DNA of 64,000 nucleotides from Allochromatium vinosum DSM 180. GTDB taxonomy: Bacteria; Pseudomonadota; Gammaproteobacteria; Chromatiales; Chromatiaceae. Shown in pieces: positions 31,846 to 42,517 of this stretch. Within the stretch, counting starts at the first letter, position 1. The number at the start of each line of letters is the position of its first letter. Below the pieces are notes generated by a model that did not search any database, was not told the origin of the DNA, and saw only the letters and a list, made by a program, of their open reading frames with translations. The translations under genes were made by a program, and so were the position numbers. The stretch lies in contig NC_013851.1 in NCBI RefSeq assembly GCF_000025485.1, positions 783,154 through 847,153 of the forward strand, in the 5' to 3' direction.

Positions 31846-32490
31846 TCATGCTCCGCGCTGACCCAGGCGGCTCTCGATGGTCACCCGGGCCAGCGTGAGA
31901 TCGGCGAGGTTGTGGGCGTCCATCTTCTTCATGATGCGCGCGCGATGGAACTCGGCTGTGCGCACACTGATGCCGAGTGCGTCGGCGACCTCCTTGTTGG
32001 ACTGTCCGGCCGTGATGGAGCGAAAGACCTGCTGTTGGCGCGGCGTGAGCTCGTTGAAGCGTTTGAGCAGATCGTCCGCTTCCTCGTCGTCGACCGCGAG
32101 GCCAGGCGTCACGGCGTTGGCGCGCAGGGTGTCCTGCACCAGATCGATGAGCGCCTGATGATTGACCGGCTTGGTGATGAAGTCGATCGCGCCGAGCTTC
32201 ATGGCGCGCACTGCCATGGGGATGTCGCCATAGCCCGTGATGAGGATGGTCGGTATCCGGATACCATCCTCGCGCAGACGCTCCAGCAGAGCGATGCCGC
32301 TGATGCCGGGCATGCGCACGTCGGCGAGCAGACAGGCCGGGCGCGGCGCGTGCAGCAGGCCCGATTGCAGCAAATCCTCCGCGCGGGCGAACGCCTTGGA
32401 TTCGATCTCGACCGATTCGAGCAGCAGACTCAGCGCGTCGCGCAGGGCGGGGTCGTCATCGACGATATAGGCGATCGGGGTGGTGTTCAT
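31846..32490 (-). CDS. FixJ/NarL-type response regulator
   Basis: The 214-residue protein has a receiver domain (about 5-120; acidic pair 'IVDDDP', acceptor Asp in 'CLLADVRMPGISG', 'ITKPV') and a LuxR-type helix-turn-helix ('LTPRQQQVFRSITAGQSNKEVA', shown in part, to 'VRTAEFHRARIMKKM'). This is the FixJ/FixJ-like layout. It is the last gene of the kai/histidine-kinase run, 81 bases after the hybrid kinase, whose terminal DHp-like module resembles FixL, so the two are probably partners. ATG 32490 is chosen; the frame opens at 32520. Confidence 0.92.
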   Translation of the reverse strand: MNTTPIAYIVDDDPALRDALSLLLESVEIESKAFARAEDLLQSGLLHAPRPACLLADVRMPGISGIALLERLREDGIRIPTILITGYGDIPMAVRAMKLGAIDFITKPVNHQALIDLVQDTLRANAVTPGLAVDDEEADDLLKRFNELTPRQQQVFRSITAGQSNKEVADALGISVRTAEFHRARIMKKMDAHNLADLTLARVTIESRLGQRGA

Positions 32491-32571
32491 CAGTTCAACT
32501 TCGAGTCCTGGGGCACACATCGAACAGAGCCGGCGCTGAGCGAGGATCGCGCATCCTCCAGGTCATTGTCG

Positions 32572-34668
32572 TCATGATGGGCGATTCTTTGCAACCTTCG
32601 TGTCATCTTGGCACGTCTGGCGCTTGGTCTCGTGCAGGAAACCCCTGAGCCGATCCAGACCGGCCCCGGCGATCCGGATCTGCTGTTCGATGCCGCACAA
32701 TGCATTGTACAGGGGGCCGGACTCATGGCCGGACTTCGCCAACAGATTGCGCGCCGCGACCGCGTAGCAGCCGACAGTGTTCAGGGGTTGCGCCAGATCA
32801 TGCACGAGTGAGGCGGCCGCCGGCGTAAGTGTGGCCCCGTTGACGGCGTCTCCTGAATCCAGGGTATCTCCAGGGTCGCGCGCCCTGAGCTGAGCCGCTG
32901 GATCGCCTGCCCGGTCCAGCAGCCGATCGAGCACATCGAGCGCCACCGGCTTGACCAGATGATCGTCGAACCCGGCCTGGAGCGAGCGATGCCGATCCGA
33001 AGCCTGCCCCAGCCCGCTCATGGCAATGAGTCGGGTGTGCGCGAGTTCCGGTTGCCGGCGGATGCGCCGCGCGACCTCGTGGCCGTCCATGCCCGGCATC
33101 CCGATGTCCAGGATCACCAGATCCGCACCGTCCTCGGCGAGCTGCGCGAGCGCCGAGGGACCATCGAAGGCTGTGCGTGTCGTCGCTCCCTTGCGCCTGA
33201 GCAGCGCGGCGAGACTGTTGGCGGCGTCCCGGTTGTCGTCGACGATCAGCACGCGCCGACGTCCGGACGGATCGATCGCCGGCTCCACCCGATGCACTGG
33301 GGGTCGGACCTCGCATGCTGGCGGCGCGGCCGTCGCCGGCAGGAACACGCGAATCTCGCTGCCCTGTCCCGGCCCCGCGCTCCGGGCCTCGACCCAGCCG
33401 CCGTGCAGCTCGGTCAGCCGCTTGACCAGCGAGAGACCGATGCCGAGTCCGCCCGCCCCCGGCGACTGTCCCGGATCGCCCTGACGAAAGAGCTCGAACA
33501 GATGCGGCAGCAGGTCGGCGGGGATGCCGATCCCGGTGTCGATCACCCGGACCAGTACGCCGCCGTCGCGCGGCTCGGCCTCCAGGCGGATCTCGCCCTG
33601 GGGTTCGCTGTACTTGATGGCATTGTCGAGCAGATTGCCGAAGACCTGAGTCAGGCGTACCGGATCGGCTTCGAGCCACAGCGGCTCGGGAGGCAGCCGG
33701 ATCGCCAGATGCAGATCGGCGGCCGCGATCTGGGGCCGGATCGTCTCCAGCGCGCCCCGGATGACGCCGGACAGTTCCACCGGCTGCGTGCGCAGGTCGA
33801 TCTTGCCGCAGGTGATGCGCGAGACCTCCAGCAGATCGTCGAGCAGCCGCACCAGATGCGCGAACTGCCGCTCGATGATCGCCAGGGCCTCCAGGGCCTC
33901 GCTTCCATCCTCGCCGCCGAAGAGCCGCAGGGCGCCCAGCGCATGACCGATCGAGGCGAGCGGATTGCGCAGTTCATGTGACAGGGTGGCGAGAAAGGCA
34001 TCCTTGCGCCTGTCCATCTCCAGGAGTTCCTGGGCCGAGCGGGCCGCGCGTTCCTGGGCCGCGAGCGCCTGTTCGGCCATGGCCAGGGCTTCGGCGCGCG
34101 AGGCGCTCAGGGCCTGTTGCTGCTCTTCGAGTTGCGCGATCAGGGCGCGCTCGGCCTCCAGACGGGTCAGATCAGTGCCGACCAGACAGATCATGGATCC
34201 CTCTGGCCGCACGAGCCGGCTGGCCCAGAGATGCAGCGGCACGGCCCCTCCATCCGGGGTACAGAAAACGATCCGGTCGTCGGCCCGCCCCCGGCCGGAG
34301 GCGCCGAGCAGCGCCTCGAAGCGCTGGTGATCCTGGGGCGCCACGAATTCACCGAGCCGATATCCCAGCAGCGCGGCGCGCGGTCGACGCAGCAGGGTGG
34401 CGGCGCGCTCGTTGCAATAGAGCAGCAGACCGTCCGGTGAGATGGCCAGACCGGCCTCGTTCATGGTCTCGACCATCTGACGATGGAGGTTCTCGGTCTC
34501 GGTCAGCGAGAAGACTCGGTCGCCCTGACTGCCGCTGACGATGATGGCGTCGACCTCGCCCTCGCGGATCGCCCGCAGAGTGTCCTCGGCCTCCTCCAGG
34601 CGAGCGCTCAGTTCGGCGTTCTCGGCACGCAGTCGGTCAATGGATGACGGATGACGGCGGTGTGACAT
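32572..34668 (-). CDS. Hybrid histidine kinase with receiver and extra C-terminal DHp-like module
   Basis: The 698-residue protein shows an N-terminal coiled coil, a PAS domain ('VETMNEAGLAISPDGLLLYC', about 65-175), a second coiled coil, HisKA ('LSHELRNPLASIGHALGALR'), HATPase ('GNLLDNAIKYSEPQGEI', 'DTGIGIPAD', 'GGLGIGLSLVKRL') and a receiver ('VLIVDDNRD', 'LVILDIGMPGMDG', 'LVKPV', about 470-590). The last 80 residues contain 'LVHDLAQPLNTVGCYAVAAR', a FixL-like H-box with the His, and no ATP-binding domain after it. It could act as a phosphotransfer module from the receiver to the FixJ-like regulator. The gene begins 8 bases after the second kaiB. Confidence 0.9.
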   Translation of the reverse strand: MSHRRHPSSIDRLRAENAELSARLEEAEDTLRAIREGEVDAIIVSGSQGDRVFSLTETENLHRQMVETMNEAGLAISPDGLLLYCNERAATLLRRPRAALLGYRLGEFVAPQDHQRFEALLGASGRGRADDRIVFCTPDGGAVPLHLWASRLVRPEGSMICLVGTDLTRLEAERALIAQLEEQQQALSASRAEALAMAEQALAAQERAARSAQELLEMDRRKDAFLATLSHELRNPLASIGHALGALRLFGGEDGSEALEALAIIERQFAHLVRLLDDLLEVSRITCGKIDLRTQPVELSGVIRGALETIRPQIAAADLHLAIRLPPEPLWLEADPVRLTQVFGNLLDNAIKYSEPQGEIRLEAEPRDGGVLVRVIDTGIGIPADLLPHLFELFRQGDPGQSPGAGGLGIGLSLVKRLTELHGGWVEARSAGPGQGSEIRVFLPATAAPPACEVRPPVHRVEPAIDPSGRRRVLIVDDNRDAANSLAALLRRKGATTRTAFDGPSALAQLAEDGADLVILDIGMPGMDGHEVARRIRRQPELAHTRLIAMSGLGQASDRHRSLQAGFDDHLVKPVALDVLDRLLDRAGDPAAQLRARDPGDTLDSGDAVNGATLTPAAASLVHDLAQPLNTVGCYAVAARNLLAKSGHESGPLYNALCGIEQQIRIAGAGLDRLRGFLHETKRQTCQDDTKVAKNRPS

Positions 34669-34676
34669 GAAGGCGC

Positions 34677-35060
34677 TCAGGTCGGCGGCCGGCCTCCGGC
34701 GTCCTTGAGCCTGAGATCCAGGCCGACCAGGACGCGCTCCTGATCGGCCATGTCGCCGATGAGACGTCGCAGCGGCAGCGGCAGTTGCTTGATCAGGGTC
34801 GGGGCGGCGACGATCTGCTGATCCCTGGCCAGGCTGGGATGCTCGTAGATGTCGATGATCTCCAGCTCATAGCGCCCCTGGAGATGGCGCTCGCAGATGT
34901 CCTTGACCGAGCGCAGGGCCGTGGTGGAGCGCGGCGTCAGTCCGGCGACATAGAGCTTGAGTACATAGCGGGCGCGCGTGCCGGATTCGCGGTTCTCGGT
35001 CGTCTCCCAGGGCGTATCCGGTGACGGGTGATCCTCGGGCGGAAATTCAGGGGTGCTCAT
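34677..35060 (-). CDS. kaiB: KaiB-family protein, second copy (with N-terminal extension)
   Basis: The 127-residue protein has a 30-residue acidic, proline-rich N-terminal extension and a KaiB/thioredoxin-like domain ('YVLKLYVAGLTPRSTTALRS', 'YELEIIDIYEHPSLARDQQI', 'VAAPTLIKQLPLPLRRLIGD'). KaiB switches fold to bind the CI ring of KaiC. The 26-base gap from the first kaiB and the same direction indicate one operon. The paralogues differ, with the extension only here, so different KaiC states or partners may be bound. ATG 35060 is chosen as the longer frame runs across the previous gene. Confidence 0.92.
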   Translation of the reverse strand: MSTPEFPPEDHPSPDTPWETTENRESGTRARYVLKLYVAGLTPRSTTALRSVKDICERHLQGRYELEIIDIYEHPSLARDQQIVAAPTLIKQLPLPLRRLIGDMADQERVLVGLDLRLKDAGGRPPT

Positions 35061-35086
35061 GGTCGATCGACTCGCGGCTCGCGGGT

Positions 35087-35413
35087 TCAGGTACGGCGTC
35101 TGGGGCGCAGATCCAGACCGACAAGGACGCGGTCCGAATCGGAGAGATCGCCGATGATCTTGCGCACGGGTTCCGGCAGCTTGCGCACCAGGGTGGGCAC
35201 GGCCACGATCTGATCGCCGCGCGCCAGCTTGGGGTTCTCCATGAGATCGATGATCTCGATCTGATAGCGTCCGGCCAGATGGGTCTCGCACAGTTCCTTG
35301 AGGTTCTCGAAGGCCCGCAGCGAGCGCGGACTCTGGCCGGCGACATAGAGCCGCAGACACCAGGATTCAGCGCCCGGATCGGCGATCGATCCGTCCCTGT
35401 TCGAGTCGATCAT
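35087..35413 (-). CDS. kaiB: KaiB-family protein, first copy
   Basis: The 108-residue protein has the size of cyanobacterial KaiB and the same motifs: '[20 protein letters not shown]', '[20 protein letters not shown]' and '[20 protein letters not shown]', ending in a basic tail. It starts 11 bases after the end of kaiC. Its sequence shares the KaiB pattern with the next gene but lacks that protein's N-terminal extension. Partner binding to KaiC is inferred from family and gene order. Confidence 0.93.
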
Positions 35414-35424
35414 GGATGGCTCCC

Positions 35425-36888
35425 TCATGCCGGACCGGGCTCCCGGTCGCCGTCCGCCGGCGGGTCGGTCAATTCGATCCCGGCCTCGCTCAGTTGCAGG
35501 ATCCGCACCTCGGTCGAATGGGCCATGCCGCGGCTCTTGAGCACCGAGAGCAGGCGTCGGCGACGGCCGGCGACTTCCACCTGACGCACCGACAGCCAGG
35601 TGTCGATGAGCGTCCCGATACCCTCGTCGGTCCGTTCCAGGTCGGTCCCCGAGGACAGGCTGGTGAAGATCGCCGTGATCTCGGACTTCTTCAGGAAATC
35701 GATCATCCGTGTCAGCATCAGCTTGACCTCGGACGGATCGCCGATCGTGGTGAAGTTGGTGATGGGATCCAGGATCAGGGCCTGTGGTCGCCAGGTCTCC
35801 ACCAGCTTGTGGAGACTCATCAGATGGCTCTCCAGTCCGTGCAGCGTCGGGCGCACCGCGTGACAATGGAGTCGGCCGCCGGCGAAGTGCGGCTCCAGGT
35901 CGAAGCCGATCGACCCCATGTTGCGCAGGATCTGGTCGCTCGACTCTTCCGAAGCCCAGTACAGACAACGCTCGCCGCGCCGGCAGAGACTGTCGGCGAA
36001 GGCGACCGCCAGACTGCTCTTGCCCGCGCCGGCGGTCCCCGAGATCAGGATGCTGCTGCCCTTGAAATAGCCGCGACCGCCGAGCATGGCGTCCAGCGTC
36101 GGGACGCCGGTGGAGATACGCTCGCGCGAGACCCGGTGTTCGAGCGTGACCGAGCTGATCGGTAGCACGCTGAGGCCGTGTTCGTCGATGAGCGCCGGAT
36201 ATTCGTTGGTGCCGTGGCGCGAACCACGATACTTGACGACCCGCAGACGGCGTGTGGCGACCTGACCGTGCACGCGATGATCGAGAAAGAGCACACAGTC
36301 GCTGACGTATTCTTCAAGCCCGTGCCGGGTGAGCGTCTTCTCGCCCTGTTCGCCGGTGATGACGGCGGTGACGCCCTGTTCCTTGAGCCAGCGGAACAGC
36401 CGGCGCAGTTCGGCGCGCAGGATGCCCTCGCTGGGCAGGGCGGCGAAGAGCGCCTCGATGCCGTCGAGCGCGACGCGGCGGGCGCCGGTCTCCTCGATCA
36501 TGCTGCCGAGCCGCACGAAGAGTCCGTCGAGACCATAGTCGCCGGTCTCCTCGATCTCACTGCGTTCGAGATAGACATAGTCGAGCGCGACCCGGCCCTG
36601 ATCGACCAGGGCGTCGAGCGCAAAGCCCAGCGAGCCGACGTTCTCGATCAGCTCGCCCTCGGTCTCTTCGAAGGCCATGAACACGCCAGGCTCATCGAAT
36701 TCACGCGCCCCGCGCACGATGAACTCCATGGCCAGCAGCGTCTTGCCGCAACCGGCCGCGCCGCAGATCAGAGTCGGCCGACCGCGCGGCAGGCCGCCTT
36801 CGGTGATCTCGTCGAGTCCGCGAACGCCGGTGGGGCATTTCGCGATGCGTGGCAGGTCGACATGGGGGGCTTGGGAAGCGACTGGCAT
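35425..36888 (-). CDS. kaiC: KaiC-family circadian ATPase/kinase (KaiA-independent type)
   Basis: The 487-residue protein has two RecA-like domains. Walker A motifs are GAAGCGKT (43-50) and GTAGAGKS (284-291), and the paired glutamates are E74-E75 and E314-E315. The phosphorylation region in the second domain reads '[14 protein letters not shown]': the site of cyanobacterial Ser431 is Gly425, while the Thr432 position is kept as Thr426. The C-terminal KaiA-binding tail of cyanobacterial KaiC is not present. No kaiA gene is seen. Start ATG 36888 fits homologues; a longer in-frame TTG start at 36954 is unlikely. It leads the kaiC-kaiB-kaiB-kinase-regulator run. Confidence 0.93.
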
Positions 36889-37131
36889 CCGAGGGTTGCA
36901 TCCAAGTCGATGAGTGGAACCAGGGATCGTTCGGAGGGACGCGCTCTTTCTCAAGGCTGAGGTGAGCCGGCGTGCATCCTCGTCGCCATACTAACACTGA
37001 TGCGTAGAGAAACGCGTGGATTCCAGCGGGCGCGGGAGGCGTGATCGGAAGTCGAGGCGGGACGTTCACCGTGAGAGGCGCTCGGAGGCGCCTCTCTCGG
37101 AAGCCAGGTCGGGCCTAGCCAGGGTTGGATC
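36889..37131. other. Intergenic region between the third puc pair and kaiC
   Basis: 243 bases with no supported gene. It contains the hairpin at 37073-37096 near the end of the puc genes. A kaiC promoter could lie here, but I see no convincing -35/-10 pair and no TGT-N12-ACA palindrome. Confidence 0.6.
37073..37096 (-). terminator. Stem-loop after pucA3, possible transcript end or stabiliser
   Basis: GAGAGGCGC (37073-37081) and GCGCCTCTC (37088-37096) form a perfect 9-bp stem with a 6-base loop, 36 bases beyond the pucA3 stop on the minus strand. There is no T-run after it, so it may act as a 3' mRNA stabiliser or partial terminator rather than a strong terminator. Confidence 0.5.
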
Positions 37132-37293
37132 TCAACCCCAGGTGAACCAGCCGAGCTGCAGCACGGTGATGTGCACGGTCAGCACGATGGCCAGCACGGC
37201 GAACAGGATCGGCATCAGCCAGGTGGAAGGATTGACGACCAGCCAAATCTTCCAATCGTCGGCGGGGTTGCTGGGCTTGTTGATGTCGCTCAT
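37132..37293 (-). CDS. pucA: LH2 antenna alpha subunit, third copy
   Basis: The 53-residue membrane peptide has the light-harvesting alpha pattern: a polar N-terminus ('MSDINKPSNPADDWKIWLVV'), 'NPSTWLMPI', a single transmembrane helix and the bacteriochlorophyll-binding His in 'IVLTVHITVLQLGWFTWG'. It is too short for standard gene finders with a 60-residue limit. It follows pucB3 after 28 bases with SD-like GAGACGAAGAC upstream. The C-terminal WFTWG is close to that of the first pair and unlike the second. Confidence 0.9.
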   Translation of the reverse strand: MSDINKPSNPADDWKIWLVVNPSTWLMPILFAVLAIVLTVHITVLQLGWFTWG

Positions 37294-37321
37294 TGTCTTC
37301 GTCTCTCGTGTTGGGCCGGTC

Positions 37322-37447
37322 TTAGAACCAGGGGTTGTTCGCCAGAACCATCAGGTGCGCAAGCGCGGCCAGGCCGACGAATGCGGTGTAAGTCACCTTG
37401 AACTGTGCGTGGAATTCTTTCGCCTGCTGTTCGGTCAAGCCATTCAT
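37322..37447 (-). CDS. pucB: LH2 antenna beta subunit, third copy
   Basis: The 41-residue peptide reads 'MNGLTEQQAKEFHAQFKVTY' then 'TAFVGLAALAHLMVLANNPWF'. The conserved EFH and the His of 'ALAHLMV' are BChl ligands typical for beta subunits, and the NPWF end is of LH2 type rather than LH1 type. It lacks the first seven or so residues found in the other two copies, so its N-terminus is shorter. The start ATG 37447 is the only one in frame before the conserved core. Confidence 0.9.
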   Translation of the reverse strand: MNGLTEQQAKEFHAQFKVTYTAFVGLAALAHLMVLANNPWF

Positions 37448-37511
37448 GTGCCGTTTACTCCCAAGTGGGGCTAGGTTTTCGCGTCATGCGTCGCATGAGG
37501 CGATTCGAAGT

Positions 37512-37533
37512 GTCATGACGCCATCGTCATGAC
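37512..37533 (-). promoter_or_regulatory. 8-bp hairpin between pucA2 and pucB3
   Basis: GTCATGAC (37512-37519) repeats at 37526-37533 around GCCATC. Each copy is itself palindromic, so they also pair with each other. In puc and puf transcripts such intercistronic hairpins change segment stability and subunit ratio; that role here is inferred. Confidence 0.5.
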
Positions 37534-37544
37534 CCATGGATTCA

Positions 37545-37754
37545 TCATTCGGCCGGAGCGGCTGCCGCAGGCGCGGCTTCAGCCGGAGCGGCGCTGAAAC
37601 CCTGGCCGGGCAGCGAGAAGGCATAGAAATGCACCAGGACCGCCACCAGGGCCACGGCGATCAGGATCGGCATCAACCAAGTAGCCGGATTGACGACCAT
37701 CCAGAAGCGATGATCCTGCTCGAGTGGCTTGTAGCCCATGAATTCGATGTTCAT
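37545..37754 (-). CDS. pucA: LH2 antenna alpha subunit, second copy with long Ala/Pro C-terminal tail
   Basis: The 69-residue peptide has 'GYKPLEQDHRFWMVVNPATW', then the transmembrane helix with the BChl-ligand His in 'AVLVHFYAFSLPGQGFS' and a C-terminal tail of Ala, Pro and Glu ('AAPAEAAPAAAAPAE'). The aromatic pair found about 13-14 residues after the His in B800-850 alpha subunits (Tyr/Trp) is not here, and the GWFTWG end of the other copies is also absent. That suggests altered absorption, for example a B800-820-like form. The start is ATG 37754. Confidence 0.9.
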   Translation of the reverse strand: MNIEFMGYKPLEQDHRFWMVVNPATWLMPILIAVALVAVLVHFYAFSLPGQGFSAAPAEAAPAAAAPAE

Positions 37755-37771
37755 TTGATCAGCCTCTCGTA

Positions 37772-37918
37772 TTACCACCAGGGGTTGGCGGCGATGACCA
37801 TCATGTGCGCAAGCGCGGCCAGGCCGACGAATGCGGTGTAGGTCACTTTGAACTGCTCGTGGAATTCCTTCGCTTGCTGCTCGGTCAGTCCGGACAGACT
37901 CTTCTGCTGCTCAGCCAT
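37772..37918 (-). CDS. pucB: LH2 antenna beta subunit, second copy
   Basis: The 48-residue peptide reads 'MAEQQKSLSGLTEQQAKEFH', 'EQFKVTYTAFVGLAALAH' and 'MMVIAANPWW'. The His residues of EFH and 'ALAHMM' are the expected BChl ligands. A strong Shine-Dalgarno (GGAGG) lies before ATG 37918, in a leader segment almost identical to that of pucB1. It is the first gene after the second PpsR-type operator pair, so it starts a pucB2A2B3A3 unit. Confidence 0.92.
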   Translation of the reverse strand: MAEQQKSLSGLTEQQAKEFHEQFKVTYTAFVGLAALAHMMVIAANPWW

Positions 37919-38041
37919 GATTGGCCTCCAGTTGCGTGGATGATGGTCCCAGACGTCCCGCCGCCAGGGAGATCGCGTCTCTCTCGGTGAGTCCGGCTGG
38001 TCTCCTCGGGCTAGTCGACTCAGGGCCGTCTAGCGTTTTTG

Positions 38042-38109
38042 TTAGCATCAACCAGTGATACTACGTGTCAGTATGACTTGACACTCTAGAATGTCAAGTG
38101 AATTTTACA
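38042..38109 (-). promoter_or_regulatory. puc promoter 2 with two TGT-N12-ACA palindromes (PpsR/CrtJ-type)
   Basis: Two 18-base palindromes, TGT-N12-ACA, lie at 38066-38083 and 38092-38109, exactly 8 bases apart. On the minus strand, -35 CTGACA (38071-38066) lies in the promoter-proximal palindrome and -10 TGCTAA (38047-38042) follows after 18 bases, about 124 bases before pucB2. PpsR/CrtJ binds TGT-N12-ACA and represses puc, bch and crt genes under oxygen; protein binding here is inferred. Confidence 0.8.
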
Positions 38110-38634
38110 GTCGCCGTACGCATTCGACCCTGAACGCTGGAATCCGGCCCGATGGGACGGCGCGCCTGCGCCCTGACGGGCCTCTTTCCAGTCCATGCCC
38201 AAGCGTTTGACGACCTGTCGAATCGTCTCCTCACTGACCTCGCGGTCGGTCAGCCCCTGCTCGAAGGCGACCCGCGCGAGCACGGCCAGGGTCCAGCGGC
38301 CCCGGGCCTTGCCGAATTCACTCGGACAGCGCCGCAGCATCGAACGGATCTGCTCGGCCGAAAAACCGCCGATCAGGGCGCGCGTGTTCTTCGGACGGTG
38401 CGATTTCGCGATCAGACACCCCAGTCCATCGGTCGCGAAGGCGTTGAGCGCGTTGAGTACCGTCTGTTGAGCACAGCCGAGCGAAGTCGCGATGTGCGTG
38501 GCGGTCCGGCCCTCGGCGCTGGCGAGTAGGATCTGACAACGGCGCTGGGTGAAGGCATCCAGTGAATGCAACCCGCCGCGCAGGATCTGAAGTTCCTTGA
38601 GGCTCAGGGGGCGGACGAATAGAGGCGCTTTCAT
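38086..38634 (-). pseudogene. Truncated IS630-family transposase (N-terminal HTH part)
   Basis: The 182-residue frame begins 'MKAPLFVRPLSLKELQILRG' and contains a helix-turn-helix ('GRTATHIATSLGCAQQTVLN') and 'SEETIRQVVKRLGMDWKEAR', as in the N-terminal region of IS630/Tc1-like transposases. The DDE catalytic part is missing: after about residue 150 the sequence leaves the family and runs into the puc operator region. It sits between pucA1 and pucB2. The end of the open frame overlaps the distal palindrome at 38092-38109. Confidence 0.8.
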
Positions 38635-38785
38635 GGTGATTCGACAACCGCTATAAGTCTGATTTTCTAGATAAAAACCATCCGGCTAGCCGAGTTCGCG
38701 GAGCTTGGGTCGCGCCGGCCCGCGATGGTGGCGGTCCCTATGCACGCCGGGGTTCGCCCTGGAGCGAATCCCGGCGGGTTGGGGA
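38635..38785. other. Gap between pucA1 and the transposase remnant
   Basis: 151 bases without a gene. It contains the strong stem-loop at 38745-38776. The AT-rich stretch around 38660-38690 could be the old insertion edge of the element; no clear terminal inverted repeats are seen. Confidence 0.5.
38745..38776 (-). terminator. 13-bp stem-loop after pucA1
   Basis: CGCCGGGGTTCGC (38745-38757) pairs with GCGAATCCCGGCG (38764-38776), with one G-T pair and a 6-base loop, 10 bases after the pucA1 stop. No T-run follows. In puc/puf operons such hairpins protect the antenna mRNA 3' end; it could also reduce read-through toward pucB2. Confidence 0.65.
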
Positions 38786-38944
38786 TCAACCCCAGGTGAA
38801 CCAGCCGAGCGACAGCACGGCCACATGGACCGTGAGCACGATCAGCAGGACGGCGAACAGGATCGGCATCAGCCAGGTGGCCGGATTGACGACCAGCCAG
38901 AAACGATAGTCCTGCTCTTGCGGTTTGTAGCCCATGACTTCCAT
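38786..38944 (-). CDS. pucA: LH2 antenna alpha subunit, first copy
   Basis: The 52-residue peptide reads 'MEVMGYKPQEQDYRFWLVVN', then 'PATWLMPILFAVLLI' and 'VLTVHVAVLSLGWFTWG'. The His is the BChl ligand. It follows pucB1 by 30 bases with an AGAGGTC Shine-Dalgarno. The WFTWG end matches copy 3. It is below 60 residues and would be missed by length-filtered gene calls. Confidence 0.9.
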   Translation of the reverse strand: MEVMGYKPQEQDYRFWLVVNPATWLMPILFAVLLIVLTVHVAVLSLGWFTWG

Positions 38945-38974
38945 CTGCTTGACCTCTTTAGAAAAATGGATCGA

Positions 38975-39118
38975 TTAGAACCATGGATTGGTGGCGAGCA
39001 CGAACAGGTGGACCACCGCCGCCAGACCGACGAAAGCGGTATAGGTCACCTTGAACTGTGCGTGGAATTCCTGGGCCTGCTGGTCGGTGAGACCCGAGAT
39101 GTTTTTCAGTTCAGCCAT
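38975..39118 (-). CDS. pucB: LH2 antenna beta subunit, first copy
   Basis: The 47-residue peptide reads 'MAELKNISGLTDQQAQEFHA', 'QFKVTYTAFVGLAAVVHLF' and 'VLATNPWF'. EFH and the His of 'AVVHLF' are the ligands. GGAGG lies 6-7 bases before ATG 39118. The longer frame to 39184 crosses this leader and is rejected. It is the first structural gene after the first operator pair and lies downstream of the bacteriophytochrome gene on the same strand. Confidence 0.92.
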   Translation of the reverse strand: MAELKNISGLTDQQAQEFHAQFKVTYTAFVGLAAVVHLFVLATNPWF

Positions 39119-39247
39119 GATTGGCCTCCAGTGTGGATGACATCGCCGTGAACGTTGCGCGCCTTCGCCGGGGGAGGCAGGCACGTCGAATACCAGTGTT
39201 GGAGCGAATTTTCTGACTAAAGAACCTGTGGCTCTCTAGTGTTAATT

Positions 39248-39315
39248 ACTGTATCAGCGCGTAAAAATACGTGTCAACCTGGCGCGACAAATATTTGTGT
39301 CAAATTGAATTGACA
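39248..39315 (-). promoter_or_regulatory. puc promoter 1 with two TGT-N12-ACA palindromes (PpsR/CrtJ-type)
   Basis: TGT-N12-ACA occurs at 39272-39289 and 39298-39315, again exactly 8 bases apart. On the minus strand, -35 TTGACA (39277-39272) is inside the proximal palindrome; -10 TACAGT (39253-39248) follows after 18 bases (GATACA at 16 is an alternative). The transcript would have a leader of about 130 bases before pucB1. The geometry is the same as at promoter 2 and fits cooperative binding of CrtJ/PpsR described for bchC, by analogy. Confidence 0.85.
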
Positions 39316-39403
39316 CTTGTGGCCGTCGTGGGAATGCGTCCGAGTGGCGGGTGATCTGCGCGACGCGGTCGGGTCGTCGCCCGTCGCGACCAATCGACGA
39401 GGT

Positions 39404-42400
39404 TCAGGCGTGGTCGGCGAGCAGAGCGAGCAGGGCGGCGAAATCGACGGGTTTGACCAGATGGACGTCGATGCCGGCCTCCCTGGATCGGGCGCGGCTC
39501 TCCGGCTGGCTATAGCCGGTGATGGCGATGATCCGGGGCGGCGGCAGTCCGGGCTGTCGGCGCAGTGCACGCGCAACCGCGTAGCCATCCATGCCGGGCA
39601 GACCGATGTCGAGCAGGACGACCTGGGGTTGTTCGGCGATGGCCAGACGCAGGGCGGTCTCGCCGTCATAGGCCACGAGCACCTCGTAGCCCTCGCCGCC
39701 GAGCAGCAGTTCGAGACTGTCGATGGCGTCTCGATTGTCGTCCACGACCAGGATGCGCCTGTCCCTGGACGGTGTCGGCGCGGGTTCGAGCGAAGCCGGC
39801 GTTGAGCCGGCGACGGGAGCCGTATCCGCCGTCGCGGGCAGGCCGGGCAGTCGAACGCGCAGTTCGGCGCCCTGTCCGAGTCCGGGACTCAGGGCCTCGA
39901 CGCTTCCGCCATGCATCTCGACCAGACGCTTGACGAGCGACAGGCCGATGCCCAAGCCGCCCTCGGTGCGGGCGATGCCGCGATCGACCTGATAGAACAG
40001 ATCGAAGAGCTGCGGCAGGCGCTCGGGCTCGATGCCGAGACCATTGTCGCGCACCCGAATCAGCACTGTTGTCGCCTCGCGCTCGACGTCGATCGCGATG
40101 CAGCCGCCCTCGTCGGTGAACTTGGCGGCATTGGCGAGCAGATTCGAGACGACCTGCGTCAAGCGGACCAGATCGCCCATGAGCCGGATCGGTTCGGTCG
40201 GCGTCCGGATCCGGAGTTCGTGCCGGCGCGCCTCGATCAGGGCGCGACTGGTCTCCACCGCCCGGTCGATGATCTCGGTGACGTCCAGCGGCTCCGGACG
40301 CAGCTCGATCACGCCCCGGGTGATGCGCGAGACATCGAGCAGATCGTCGACGAGTCGCTGCAAATGGGCGGCCTGACGGTCGATGACCGCTAGACACCAG
40401 GCCTCCTGACCGGCGAACCTGGACTGTTTGAGCAGTTGCAGGGCGTTGGAGATGGGTGCGAGCGGATTGCGCAGCTCATGGGCGAGCATGGCGAGGAATT
40501 CGTCCTTGCGCCAGTCGGCCTCGCGCAGTTGGCGCGCCTGTTCGGCGAGCTTGGCCTCGTTGCGCTTGCGCTCGGTGATGTCGTAGTAGAACCCGAACAC
40601 CTGATAGACCTCGCCATGCTCCAGCATGGGCACATAGGTGACCACCAGATCGTAATGGCTGGTCGCCAGTTCCAGGGCGCACTCGAAGCTAACGACCGAG
40701 CGGTTCGCATAGGCCCGACACAAGTGGGGCAGATAGACGTCGCAGACCTCGGGTGGGTGGATCTCCTCGTCACGGCGCCCGAGATACGCGCTCATGGGGC
40801 GACCGGCGCGTTTCAGGCTCACGGCATTGAGAAAGCTGTAGCGCCGCGTCTGATCGTAGATTACCAGGGCGTCCGGCATGTGGTCGACCGCCAGGCGGAA
40901 GCTCTCCTTGCTCAGCCGCAGGGCATTCTCGGCGGCCTGGCGCAGACGTTCCTCGCTCGCGCGCAGGGCCTCTTCGGCCATCTTGCGCCATTCGATGTCG
41001 ATGAGCGCGCCGAGCTTGCGCGCCGACTCCAGTTCCTCCGGTCGCCAGCGCCGACCGTGCCGCTCGACGATCTCGCGCCAGGCGTCGAAGGATCGCCGTG
41101 GGCTCAGGCGTCCATCCGCCGCGACGCTCATCGACTTGTCCGGATTGCCGCCCCATGTCACCTGCCGGAGCTGTTCGCCGCGGAACCAGATCAGCTTGAT
41201 CGATTGACCGGCGTCGAGCGGAAAGAGCGCGACACCGGCGGCCGTCTCCGCCAGTTCGGCCGTCTGTTCCAGATGCGCGCTCAAACAATCGGTCGCGAAC
41301 AGTTGCGAGGGGCTGTTGGGATTCTGGGCGCTCAGTGCTCGGGCGATGTCCCGGACGTGGGGCGCGCTCGGAGTCACGCCGCCCGTGAAGACCTCATCGC
41401 CGCGGATCAACGCCACGCCATCGGCACCGATGGCCCCCAGCACGTCGTCCAGCTCCCGGCCATGGATCAGGTCGGACAGACGTTTGCCCTGGCGCATGGC
41501 CAAGAGCGTGCGCTCGCGGCAATCGCGCAGACTGGACTCGTAGCGCCGGCGGTCGACCTCTTCGGCCAGGGCGATCTGGGTCGCGAGATCCTGTGCCATC
41601 CAGCGCGCGATCTCGCGTCGCTCCCAGTTCAGCCAATGGCGGTCGAGATGATGGCAGGCGATCAGGCCCCAGAGACGCCCCTCGCGCAGAAGCGACAGGG
41701 TGAGCGTCGAGCGCACACCCATGTTGCTCAGATATTCCAGATGGACCGGCGAGACGCTGCGCAGCAGGCTCTGTGACAGATCGAGCGGTGGACCGTTGCT
41801 CGCGTCGTCGACCGGCACCAGCGGACAGGGCCTGTAGTCGACGTCGACGATGAGCCGCAGTGGATTGGTCAGAAAGATCCGGCGTGCCTGGGCCGGGATG
41901 TCCGAGGCCGGAAAGTGCAGTCCCAGATAGGGCTCCAGGTCGGGGCGGCACGACTCGGCGACGACCTCGCCGTGCCAGTCCGGGTCGAAGCGATAGACCA
42001 TGACCCGGTCGTGTCCAGTCAGCGACCGGAACAGTTCGGTGGCGTTCTGGAGTTTGACGCCCAGGTCCAGATGCGCGCGTAGGGCGTGCAGACCACGCAG
42101 GGCATCGGCTAGGGCCGCGCTCAGGTCGGCTCGCGGCATGGCGTTGGGGGAGGGTTCCAGTTCGAGGATCTGGAGGCTCCCGGAGGAGTGGAGATGACCG
42201 GCAAATCTGTCCCCGCCGGTCGCCGGCGTCCATTCGAATGGGCGCGTCGTCTCATACTCGTGGCTGGCGCTCGGTTGGGCCAGAGCCGCGTTGACCGCGT
42301 CCGCCAGTTCCGGGCCAAGGGCCGTGACCAGATCGCGACCCAGCAGACGGTCCGCTGGGATGCCCAACCAATCCATCGTGCTCAGCGAGGCGTGCAGGAT

Positions 42401-42517
42401 GCGCCGTGCTGGTCCACTCAGGGCCAGCAGGACACCGTGCGGCTGGATCGCGCCTGGGATGTGGATGGGTTCGGCCTCGCACAGGAGCGGATCGGCGATG
42501 ATGGAGGGCGGTTGCAT
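39404..42517 (-). CDS. bphP: Bacteriophytochrome hybrid histidine kinase (PAS-GAF-PHY-PAS-HisKA-HATPase-REC)
   Basis: The 1037-residue protein senses red/far-red light through biliverdin. Cys13 in 'LLCEAEPIHIPGAIQPHG' is the expected chromophore-binding residue. The GAF domain has 'HFPASDIPAQARRI' and the PHY tongue has 'SPRRSFDAW' (PRxSF). A further PAS (about 525-650) precedes HisKA ('LAHELRNPLAPISNALQLL'), HATPase ('NLLANAAKFTDEGG', 'GGLGIGLSLV') and a receiver ('VLLDIGLPGMDG', 'LVKPV'). It lies just upstream of the puc genes on the same strand, as phytochrome genes near LH2/LH4 genes do in Rhodopseudomonas palustris; a role in antenna control is inferred. AGGAAC precedes ATG 42517. Confidence 0.93.
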   Translation of the reverse strand: MQPPSIIADPLLCEAEPIHIPGAIQPHGVLLALSGPARRILHASLSTMDWLGIPADRLLGRDLVTALGPELADAVNAALAQPSASHEYETTRPFEWTPATGGDRFAGHLHSSGSLQILELEPSPNAMPRADLSAALADALRGLHALRAHLDLGVKLQNATELFRSLTGHDRVMVYRFDPDWHGEVVAESCRPDLEPYLGLHFPASDIPAQARRIFLTNPLRLIVDVDYRPCPLVPVDDASNGPPLDLSQSLLRSVSPVHLEYLSNMGVRSTLTLSLLREGRLWGLIACHHLDRHWLNWERREIARWMAQDLATQIALAEEVDRRRYESSLRDCRERTLLAMRQGKRLSDLIHGRELDDVLGAIGADGVALIRGDEVFTGGVTPSAPHVRDIARALSAQNPNSPSQLFATDCLSAHLEQTAELAETAAGVALFPLDAGQSIKLIWFRGEQLRQVTWGGNPDKSMSVAADGRLSPRRSFDAWREIVERHGRRWRPEELESARKLGALIDIEWRKMAEEALRASEERLRQAAENALRLSKESFRLAVDHMPDALVIYDQTRRYSFLNAVSLKRAGRPMSAYLGRRDEEIHPPEVCDVYLPHLCRAYANRSVVSFECALELATSHYDLVVTYVPMLEHGEVYQVFGFYYDITERKRNEAKLAEQARQLREADWRKDEFLAMLAHELRNPLAPISNALQLLKQSRFAGQEAWCLAVIDRQAAHLQRLVDDLLDVSRITRGVIELRPEPLDVTEIIDRAVETSRALIEARRHELRIRTPTEPIRLMGDLVRLTQVVSNLLANAAKFTDEGGCIAIDVEREATTVLIRVRDNGLGIEPERLPQLFDLFYQVDRGIARTEGGLGIGLSLVKRLVEMHGGSVEALSPGLGQGAELRVRLPGLPATADTAPVAGSTPASLEPAPTPSRDRRILVVDDNRDAIDSLELLLGGEGYEVLVAYDGETALRLAIAEQPQVVLLDIGLPGMDGYAVARALRRQPGLPPPRIIAITGYSQPESRARSREAGIDVHLVKPVDFAALLALLADHA

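Follow-up and report, generated by a model that had tools for sequence, protein, structure and literature searches.

We studied a cluster of photosensory, antenna, and kai genes in Allochromatium vinosum DSM 180, contained in a 64,000-nucleotide stretch of DNA (the window; G000:C1:783154-847153), and searched the genome from which it comes (3,669,074 bases on three contigs, C1 having 3,526,903). The cluster, here called the island, occupies positions 31846-42517 of the window, on the minus strand. A first-pass annotation made from the letters alone had placed there a bacteriophytochrome gene, three pairs of light-harvesting complex 2 (LH2) genes, kaiC, two kaiB genes, a hybrid kinase gene, and a FixJ-type regulator gene, all on one strand. 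Coordinates, open reading frame translations, and Pfam and NCBIfam families agree with each of these; of the LH2 chains, those of pair 3 were covered by the family scan, and the others were recognized by PF00556 over the genome. A 182-residue helix-turn-helix (HTH) gene between pairs 1 and 2 had been overlooked.

Read in the direction of transcription, the island opens with bphP (39404-42517), which Pfam and translation motifs identify as encoding a 1037-residue bacteriophytochrome hybrid histidine kinase (PAS-GAF-PHY-PAS-HisKA-HATPase-REC). A tandem TGT-N12-ACA operator (39272-39315), ending on the right in TTGACA, the -35 hexamer of a promoter-like site, and an abutting element, CGTATTTTTACG (39260-39271), a candidate FixJ site, precede pucB1 (LH2 beta, 38975-39118; Alvin_0709) and pucA1 (LH2 alpha, 38786-38944; Alvin_0708). 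Next comes the HTH gene (38086-38634; Alvin_0707), whose product resembles the N-terminus of IS630 and has no catalytic domain. A second tandem operator (38066-38109) overlaps its 3' end and is again abutted by a candidate FixJ site, CGTAGTATCACT (38054-38065), upstream of pucB2 (beta, 37772-37918; Alvin_0706), pucA2 (alpha, 37545-37754; Alvin_0705), pucB3 (beta, 37322-37447; Alvin_0704), and pucA3 (alpha, 37132-37293; Alvin_0703). The Alvin tags were assigned by gene order, the series A, B, A, B, x, A, B being an exact match. Between pucA3 and kaiC lies a G+C-rich hairpin of 9 bp with no T run (37073-37096; z -2.55 for the fold of 37040-37135). Then follow kaiC (35425-36954; 509 codons from a TTG start, an inner ATG being possible), kaiB1 (35087-35413; 108 residues), kaiB2 (34677-35060; 127 residues), the gene for a PAS-HisKA-HATPase-REC hybrid kinase with a C-terminal FixL-type phospho-acceptor domain (32572-34668), and the gene for a FixJ-type response regulator (REC-GerE; 31846-32520). 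Carbamoyl-phosphate synthase genes (42627 and 43971) and a thioredoxin 2 gene (31380) flank the island on the plus strand.

Because the gaps from kaiC through kaiB1 and kaiB2 to the kinase gene measure 11, 26, and 8 bp and that from the kinase gene to fixJ 51 bp, these five genes look like one tight operon. By its sequence signals, the island as a whole does not look like one long transcript: separate promoter-operator regions precede LH2 pairs 1 and 2, a hairpin follows pucA3, and in four of the related loci described below the LH2 genes are divergent from kaiC. The initial picture of a single run from light sensor through antenna and clock proteins to output is therefore not supported, the more so as bphP lies upstream of LH2 genes in two of the eight LH2-linked loci (two of the six with enough flank).

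We compared 112 kaiC loci, namely the window, 80 from genome contigs, and 31 regions from a sample of 146 family genomes, five duplicates being dropped later. At a threshold of E 1e-60, a KaiC match was found in 30 of the 146. LH2 genes adjoin kaiC at eight distinct loci. They are codirectional with kaiC in the window, Thiorhodococcus minor (L037), Thiobaca trueperi (L038), and L118 (G132), and divergent in a Thiocapsa metagenome-assembled genome (MAG; L039), L040, L041 (G015, a Chromatiaceae MAG), and L121 (G123). A branch with SH-aLRT 100 separates the eight KaiCs from the rest in a tree of 101 rows built by a quick method, from which six rows were left out, none of them LH2-linked (L057, L058, L066, L089, L107, and L145). 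Since the gathering recurs at 8 of 112 loci and these make up one KaiC clade, it goes beyond chance, and it persists where orientation and the number of LH2 copies differ. Comparison with other kai loci, proposed at the outset as a check, thus upholds a conserved neighborhood. The 4.2-kb contig L040 comes from a MAG titled Alphaproteobacteria and has the same divergent LH2-kai arrangement as the Thiocapsa MAG, which points to a binning error or a transfer.

Because LH2 genes define the group, a trait can serve as a test only if it is independent of them; two such traits lie at the downstream end of the kai operon. The first is fixJ: among loci with at least 5 kb of downstream sequence, a same-strand gene of at least 40% identity within 8 kb downstream is present in 6/6 LH2-linked loci, including L039 and L121, versus 0/76 others. 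It is also present in L037, which has 4.6 kb downstream; the L040 contig ends inside the kinase gene. L068, which is not LH2-linked and whose contig is too short for this count, has a 41% FixJ match upstream on the opposite strand. The protein scores 201.1 bits against the FixJ equivalog, below its cut-off of 255, and is therefore called FixJ-type.

The second trait is the kinase C-terminus. In seven aligned sequences, the stretch after the receiver has an invariant His, a Gln-Pro-Leu, and other invariant residues, and it occurs at all seven LH2-linked loci with a contig long enough to cover the kinase gene. It is found nowhere else among the 112, three additional matches being duplicate fetches of LH2-linked loci. 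A profile of the seven sequences matches the FixL part of PDB 4gcz (E 5e-7) and the related constructs 8a7f and 8a3u. The AF2 model of receiver plus tail shows a receiver with a hairpin of two helices (mean pLDDT 79.5, seven sequences), and the protein ends past the hairpin, with no ATPase after the acceptor domain. FixJ and the FixL-type domain thus mark the LH2-linked clade, and as fixJ lies next to the kinase gene wherever an LH2-linked locus has the sequence to show it, the most economical interpretation is a His-Asp-His-Asp relay.

Five copies of the tandem TGT-N12-ACA operator, its palindromes 8 bp apart, are present in the A. vinosum genome: at pucB1, pucB2, two other puc places, and a polyprenyl-synthetase gene. 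A reversed control pattern has zero matches in the same genome. The polyprenyl-synthetase (crtE-like) copy, at L192:4817-4860, is the sole one outside LH2 promoters. We take TGT-N12-ACA to be the PpsR/CrtJ consensus, and a PpsR/CrtJ protein is encoded in the genome (512.8 bits, cut-off 275.4).

Directly after the second palindrome, 11 of 12 promoters tabulated from the eight loci (two identical L118 copies being counted once) have the element CGTA-N4-(T/C)AC-(G/T), which was not found at the three other tandem operators of the genome. Across the 146 family genomes the pattern has 10 sites in five genomes, each within an LH2-linked kai locus; nine precede LH2 genes and one (G033) precedes an HTH gene. 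The reversed pattern has three matches, in three other genomes. Among the 112 kaiC loci the element is confined to the LH2-linked ones, L041 excepted. An alignment of kaiC upstream regions gave no convincing element.

The antenna genes themselves belong with puc. Light-harvesting complex (LHC) matches (PF00556) number 18 in the A. vinosum genome, in four places. For the comparison of kaiC loci, the LHC profile was built from six LH2 chains of this same genome, so distant LHC genes at other loci may have been overlooked. Over core columns, island chains share 42-87% identity with puc chains from elsewhere in the genome and 17-41% with puf chains, so pair 3, for which NCBIfam gives an LH1 label, is taken as LH2, and the LH1 identity is ruled out. 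The genome has three puf pairs, in agreement with PMC3368242 (excerpt). Eleven residues past the conserved His, PucA1 and PucA3 carry Trp but PucA2 carries Phe; the last two residues of PucB1 and PucB3 are Trp-Phe rather than Trp-Trp. We assume these positions to have roles in LH2 spectra, and the island genes, to judge from their translations, may encode different spectral forms. The LH2 make-up of A. vinosum shifts with light quality (PMC10861460, excerpt).

Published expression data set most of these genes apart from other antenna genes. In a comparison of growth on pyrite versus sulfide (PMC11267869, Table 2), Alvin_0703-0706 change by log2 fold changes of -6.2 to -6.9, Alvin_0709 by -5.8, and Alvin_0708 by -3.0, with the other six puc genes at -2.0 to -3.2 and puf genes at -1.6 to -3.1. 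Going by that table, repression is thus stronger for five of the island's six LH2 genes than for the other LH2 genes.

Kai genes and a relay kept beside LH2 genes with a common promoter element suggest that Kai proteins help control antenna building. We favor the reading that the kai operon acts on the adjacent LH2 genes through FixJ, with a probability of roughly 0.6. The island would then be a regulatory cassette for a subset of LH2 antenna genes, in which an ATP-driven protein switch made up of KaiC, KaiB1, and KaiB2 would act on the PAS hybrid kinase of the same operon. Phosphate would pass from the first His of the kinase to its own receiver and on to the second, FixL-type His domain at its C-terminus, which, without an ATPase of its own, would phosphorylate the FixJ-type regulator encoded next. 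At the neighboring LH2 promoters, FixJ would bind the CGTA-N4-TACG element that borders the tandem operator, tuning LH2 expression over PpsR/CrtJ-type control. The phytochrome, where present, would add red/far-red input through a kinase that resembles the Kai-linked one, perhaps by way of the same acceptor domain. What the data show are the gene content, the conserved linkage, the domain make-up, the clade marks, the co-distribution of the element, and, in the published comparison, the stronger repression of most island LH2 genes. The fuller version, in which a KaiA-independent Kai timer feeds a His-Asp-His-Asp relay with a captured FixL-type domain, FixJ, and the LH2 operator, so that antenna size is set by time or energy state and A. 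vinosum has a reduced, single-phosphosite latch, we put forward tentatively.

KaiC matches NF006799 at 640.1 bits (cut-off 408), with PF06745 in two stretches, and falls below the other KaiC equivalog (TIGR02655; 296.7, cut-off 546.25); KaiB1 and KaiB2 match PF07689 at 94.8 and 89.6 bits (cut-off 27), and both are under the NCBIfam KaiB equivalog cut-offs. The A. vinosum genome has no KaiA match, the search control being positive in Synechococcus elongatus only, in line with the independence from KaiA supposed by the first-pass annotation. KaiBC could be a true timer, an hourglass or damped oscillator anticipating dawn or dusk, with the relay writing time of day onto the LH2 genes. The nearest solved chains of KaiC are those of Rhodobacter sphaeroides KaiC (544 bits), and the nearest solved relative of KaiB1 belongs to the same KaiBC system (108 bits), which has been called an hourglass (PMC10076222, excerpt); Rhodopseudomonas palustris has a kaiC-dependent proto-circadian system (PMC4794148, excerpt).

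At the position of R. sphaeroides Ser413-Ser414, A. vinosum KaiC has Gly-Thr and thus lacks two adjacent phosphorylatable CII residues, which the other seven LH2-linked rows have as SS or ST. Gly-Thr occurs in the window only; the rest of the 101 aligned rows divide into 84 SS, 7 ST, 4 TS, 4 SA, and 1 SM, and of the six rows left out five have SS, the pair of L058 not being read. After the core, KaiC continues for 14 residues in the window, 10 in L041, 11 in L121, and 75-94 in the other five LH2-linked loci; ends at most 8 residues past the core are also seen at L042, L046, L048, and L054. A. vinosum KaiC thus has no C-terminal coiled-coil extension of the R. sphaeroides type. In R. sphaeroides the hourglass depends on this coil, which builds the dodecamer and speeds dephosphorylation, and a form without the coil bore phosphate on Ser414 (PMC10076222, excerpt). 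From these features we infer a single-site, slowly reset switch rather than an hourglass. Lacking the coil and one of two phosphosites, A. vinosum is where timing is least likely, and with no KaiA and two further tail-less members (L041 and L121) a true timer strikes us as unlikely. The KaiCs of T. minor and T. trueperi retain the tail and both phosphosites, and timekeeping in some members of the clade is possible, if hardly probable. Of the originally proposed timing device tied to light harvesting, the functional tie is favored by fixJ, the FixL-type domain, and the confined promoter element; the Gly-Thr pair and missing coil speak against the timing.

Several observations weigh against Kai control of LH2 through FixJ. 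Five genomes of the same genus have no kaiC match at E 1e-60. Pfam finds no domain in the kinase C-terminus, and among the 50 matches listed by Foldseek for the receiver-plus-tail model, receivers predominate. The element pattern was derived from the LH2-linked loci and is present there by construction; its informative part is its absence from the other 141 genomes, though some of these may lack a tandem operator altogether. L041 (G015) has FixJ without the element, and no element lies within 450 bp upstream of kaiC at the four codirectional loci. In the expression data, Alvin_0708 (-3.0) lies inside the spread of the remaining puc genes, and the main text of PMC11267869 makes no mention of tags 0698-0702 and 0710, those of the kai, kinase, fixJ, and bphP genes. 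On the phytochrome side, the best non-self match to the BphP kinase-receiver part, among 44 listed, is the island kinase (52%, 327.7 bits), but a second kinase at 3022886-3024016 comes nearly as close (49%, 317.4 bits) before scores drop to 191.9, which weakens any special resemblance; a tblastn search with the island proteins over the 15 kb surrounding that hybrid kinase (G000:C1:3022886-3024016; L189:6886-8016) gave no kai gene. What we infer are the protein-protein steps, the binding of the element by FixJ, and which way control runs; common ancestry by itself could keep both linkage and element.

That last point underlies the possibility that kai operon and LH2 genes are neighbors by descent only, with FixJ serving another target and LH2 under PpsR/CrtJ and phytochrome control. 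The tandem operator of the island promoters is common to other photosynthesis genes, PpsR/CrtJ is encoded, and the kai tags go unmentioned in the main text of a study with strong LH2 repression. Yet the linkage outlasts changes of orientation and LH2 copy number, the LH2-linked loci are set apart by FixJ and the FixL-type domain, and the CGTA element was found at these loci only; we regard mere descent as unlikely.

The HTH protein is a further candidate for the local regulator. It matches positions 1-118 of the 299 of the IS630 model (61.9 bits, cut-off 100) and has no catalytic part. At E 1e-10 it occurs in 4 of the 146 family genomes, always at codirectional LH2-linked loci. Over 149 codons in four sequences, the ratio of nonsynonymous to synonymous substitution rates (dN/dS) is 0.12-0.26, with dS at 1.3-2.2, near saturation; we reject a decaying transposase on this ratio. 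The AF2 model has a mean pLDDT of 62.9, and a PDB search with the protein gave one match that is not credible (E 0.14). By its sequence, it is probably a domesticated DNA-binding fragment and a local regulator. Its gene, annotated "Regulatory protein LuxR", drops with the LH2 genes on pyrite (log2 fold change -3.41; PMC11267869). That this protein rather than FixJ reads the CGTA element is nevertheless improbable: L039, L040, and L121 have the element without an HTH gene at the locus, and none was found anywhere in G123, which holds L121, so the distribution of the element fits FixJ instead. In T. trueperi, a tandem operator with CGTA element (L038:7767-7810) precedes the HTH gene and not an LH2 gene, perhaps left over from a lost LH2 pair. 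At L118:6461-8990, two HTH genes with identical translations, about 1.4 kb apart, are each followed by a pucBA pair; this HTH-LH2 unit has probably been duplicated in tandem recently.

BphP has a PAS-GAF-PHY photosensory core with the N-terminal Cys present (Pfam, translation) and scores 391.7 against the NCBIfam BphP equivalog, whose cut-off is 1040. Its translation contains Cys13, PASDIP, and PRxSF motifs, which we take to be meaningful marks of a bacteriophytochrome. The contigs of L040 and L041 end at most 0.3 kb from the LH2 genes and are uninformative on bphP. In T. trueperi, a GAF-PHY phytochrome without a kinase domain (L038:15371-16984), convergent to fixJ, lies at the opposite end of the island from the position of bphP in the window. 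A role for phytochrome as sole driver of LH2, the situation in Rhodopseudomonas and Bradyrhizobium, with the Kai part a general stress or energy sensor, has precedent in a bacteriophytochrome beside and controlling pucBA in Bradyrhizobium BTAi1 (PMC3899966, excerpt) and in R. palustris titles in the reference list of PMC5069747, but is very doubtful here, since kai, kinase, and fixJ genes persist where bphP does not. BphP is an optional input.

To our knowledge, little is settled about what KaiBC without KaiA controls outside cyanobacteria. For a model purple sulfur bacterium, each gene of a conserved output path can now be listed, as far as a candidate operator in front of antenna genes, which makes the Kai question testable, and related strains supply natural KaiC variants with or without the coil and second phosphosite. 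We found no earlier description of a kai-LH2 gene cluster in the open-licence PMC literature; the only mention of kai in Chromatiaceae found there is kaiCBB with a diguanylate cyclase upstream in Thiodictyon syntrophicum (PMC5944118, excerpt).

Among known systems, the Rhodopseudomonas kai operon resembles the island in that genes for KaiC, KaiB, and a PAS histidine kinase follow one another and KaiA is missing (PMC4794148, excerpt), as does a Bradyrhizobium operon of kaiC, kaiB, a PAS kinase, and a CheY-like regulator (PMC3899966, excerpt). The island differs from both in its two KaiB proteins, the receiver and FixL-type domain on the kinase, the DNA-binding FixJ-type regulator, and the LH2 genes alongside. 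Compared with the R. sphaeroides KaiBC hourglass, A. vinosum KaiC is without the coil and without an equivalent of Ser413. The FixL-FixJ system shares with the island a FixJ-type regulator (201 bits) and a FixL-type acceptor domain (4gcz, E 5e-7), but the island has no oxygen-sensing FixL, and its acceptor domain sits on a hybrid kinase with no ATPase behind it. Among phytochrome-linked antenna genes, R. palustris LH4 is presumably comparable, as a bacteriophytochrome-controlled puc operon. In Bradyrhizobium BTAi1, a bacteriophytochrome gene likewise stands beside LH2 genes, with no Kai genes named beside puc in the excerpt of PMC3899966, whereas in the island clade bphP is optional and the kai operon constant. 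The island joins a variant of the known kaiBC-kinase operon to the known phytochrome-puc theme.

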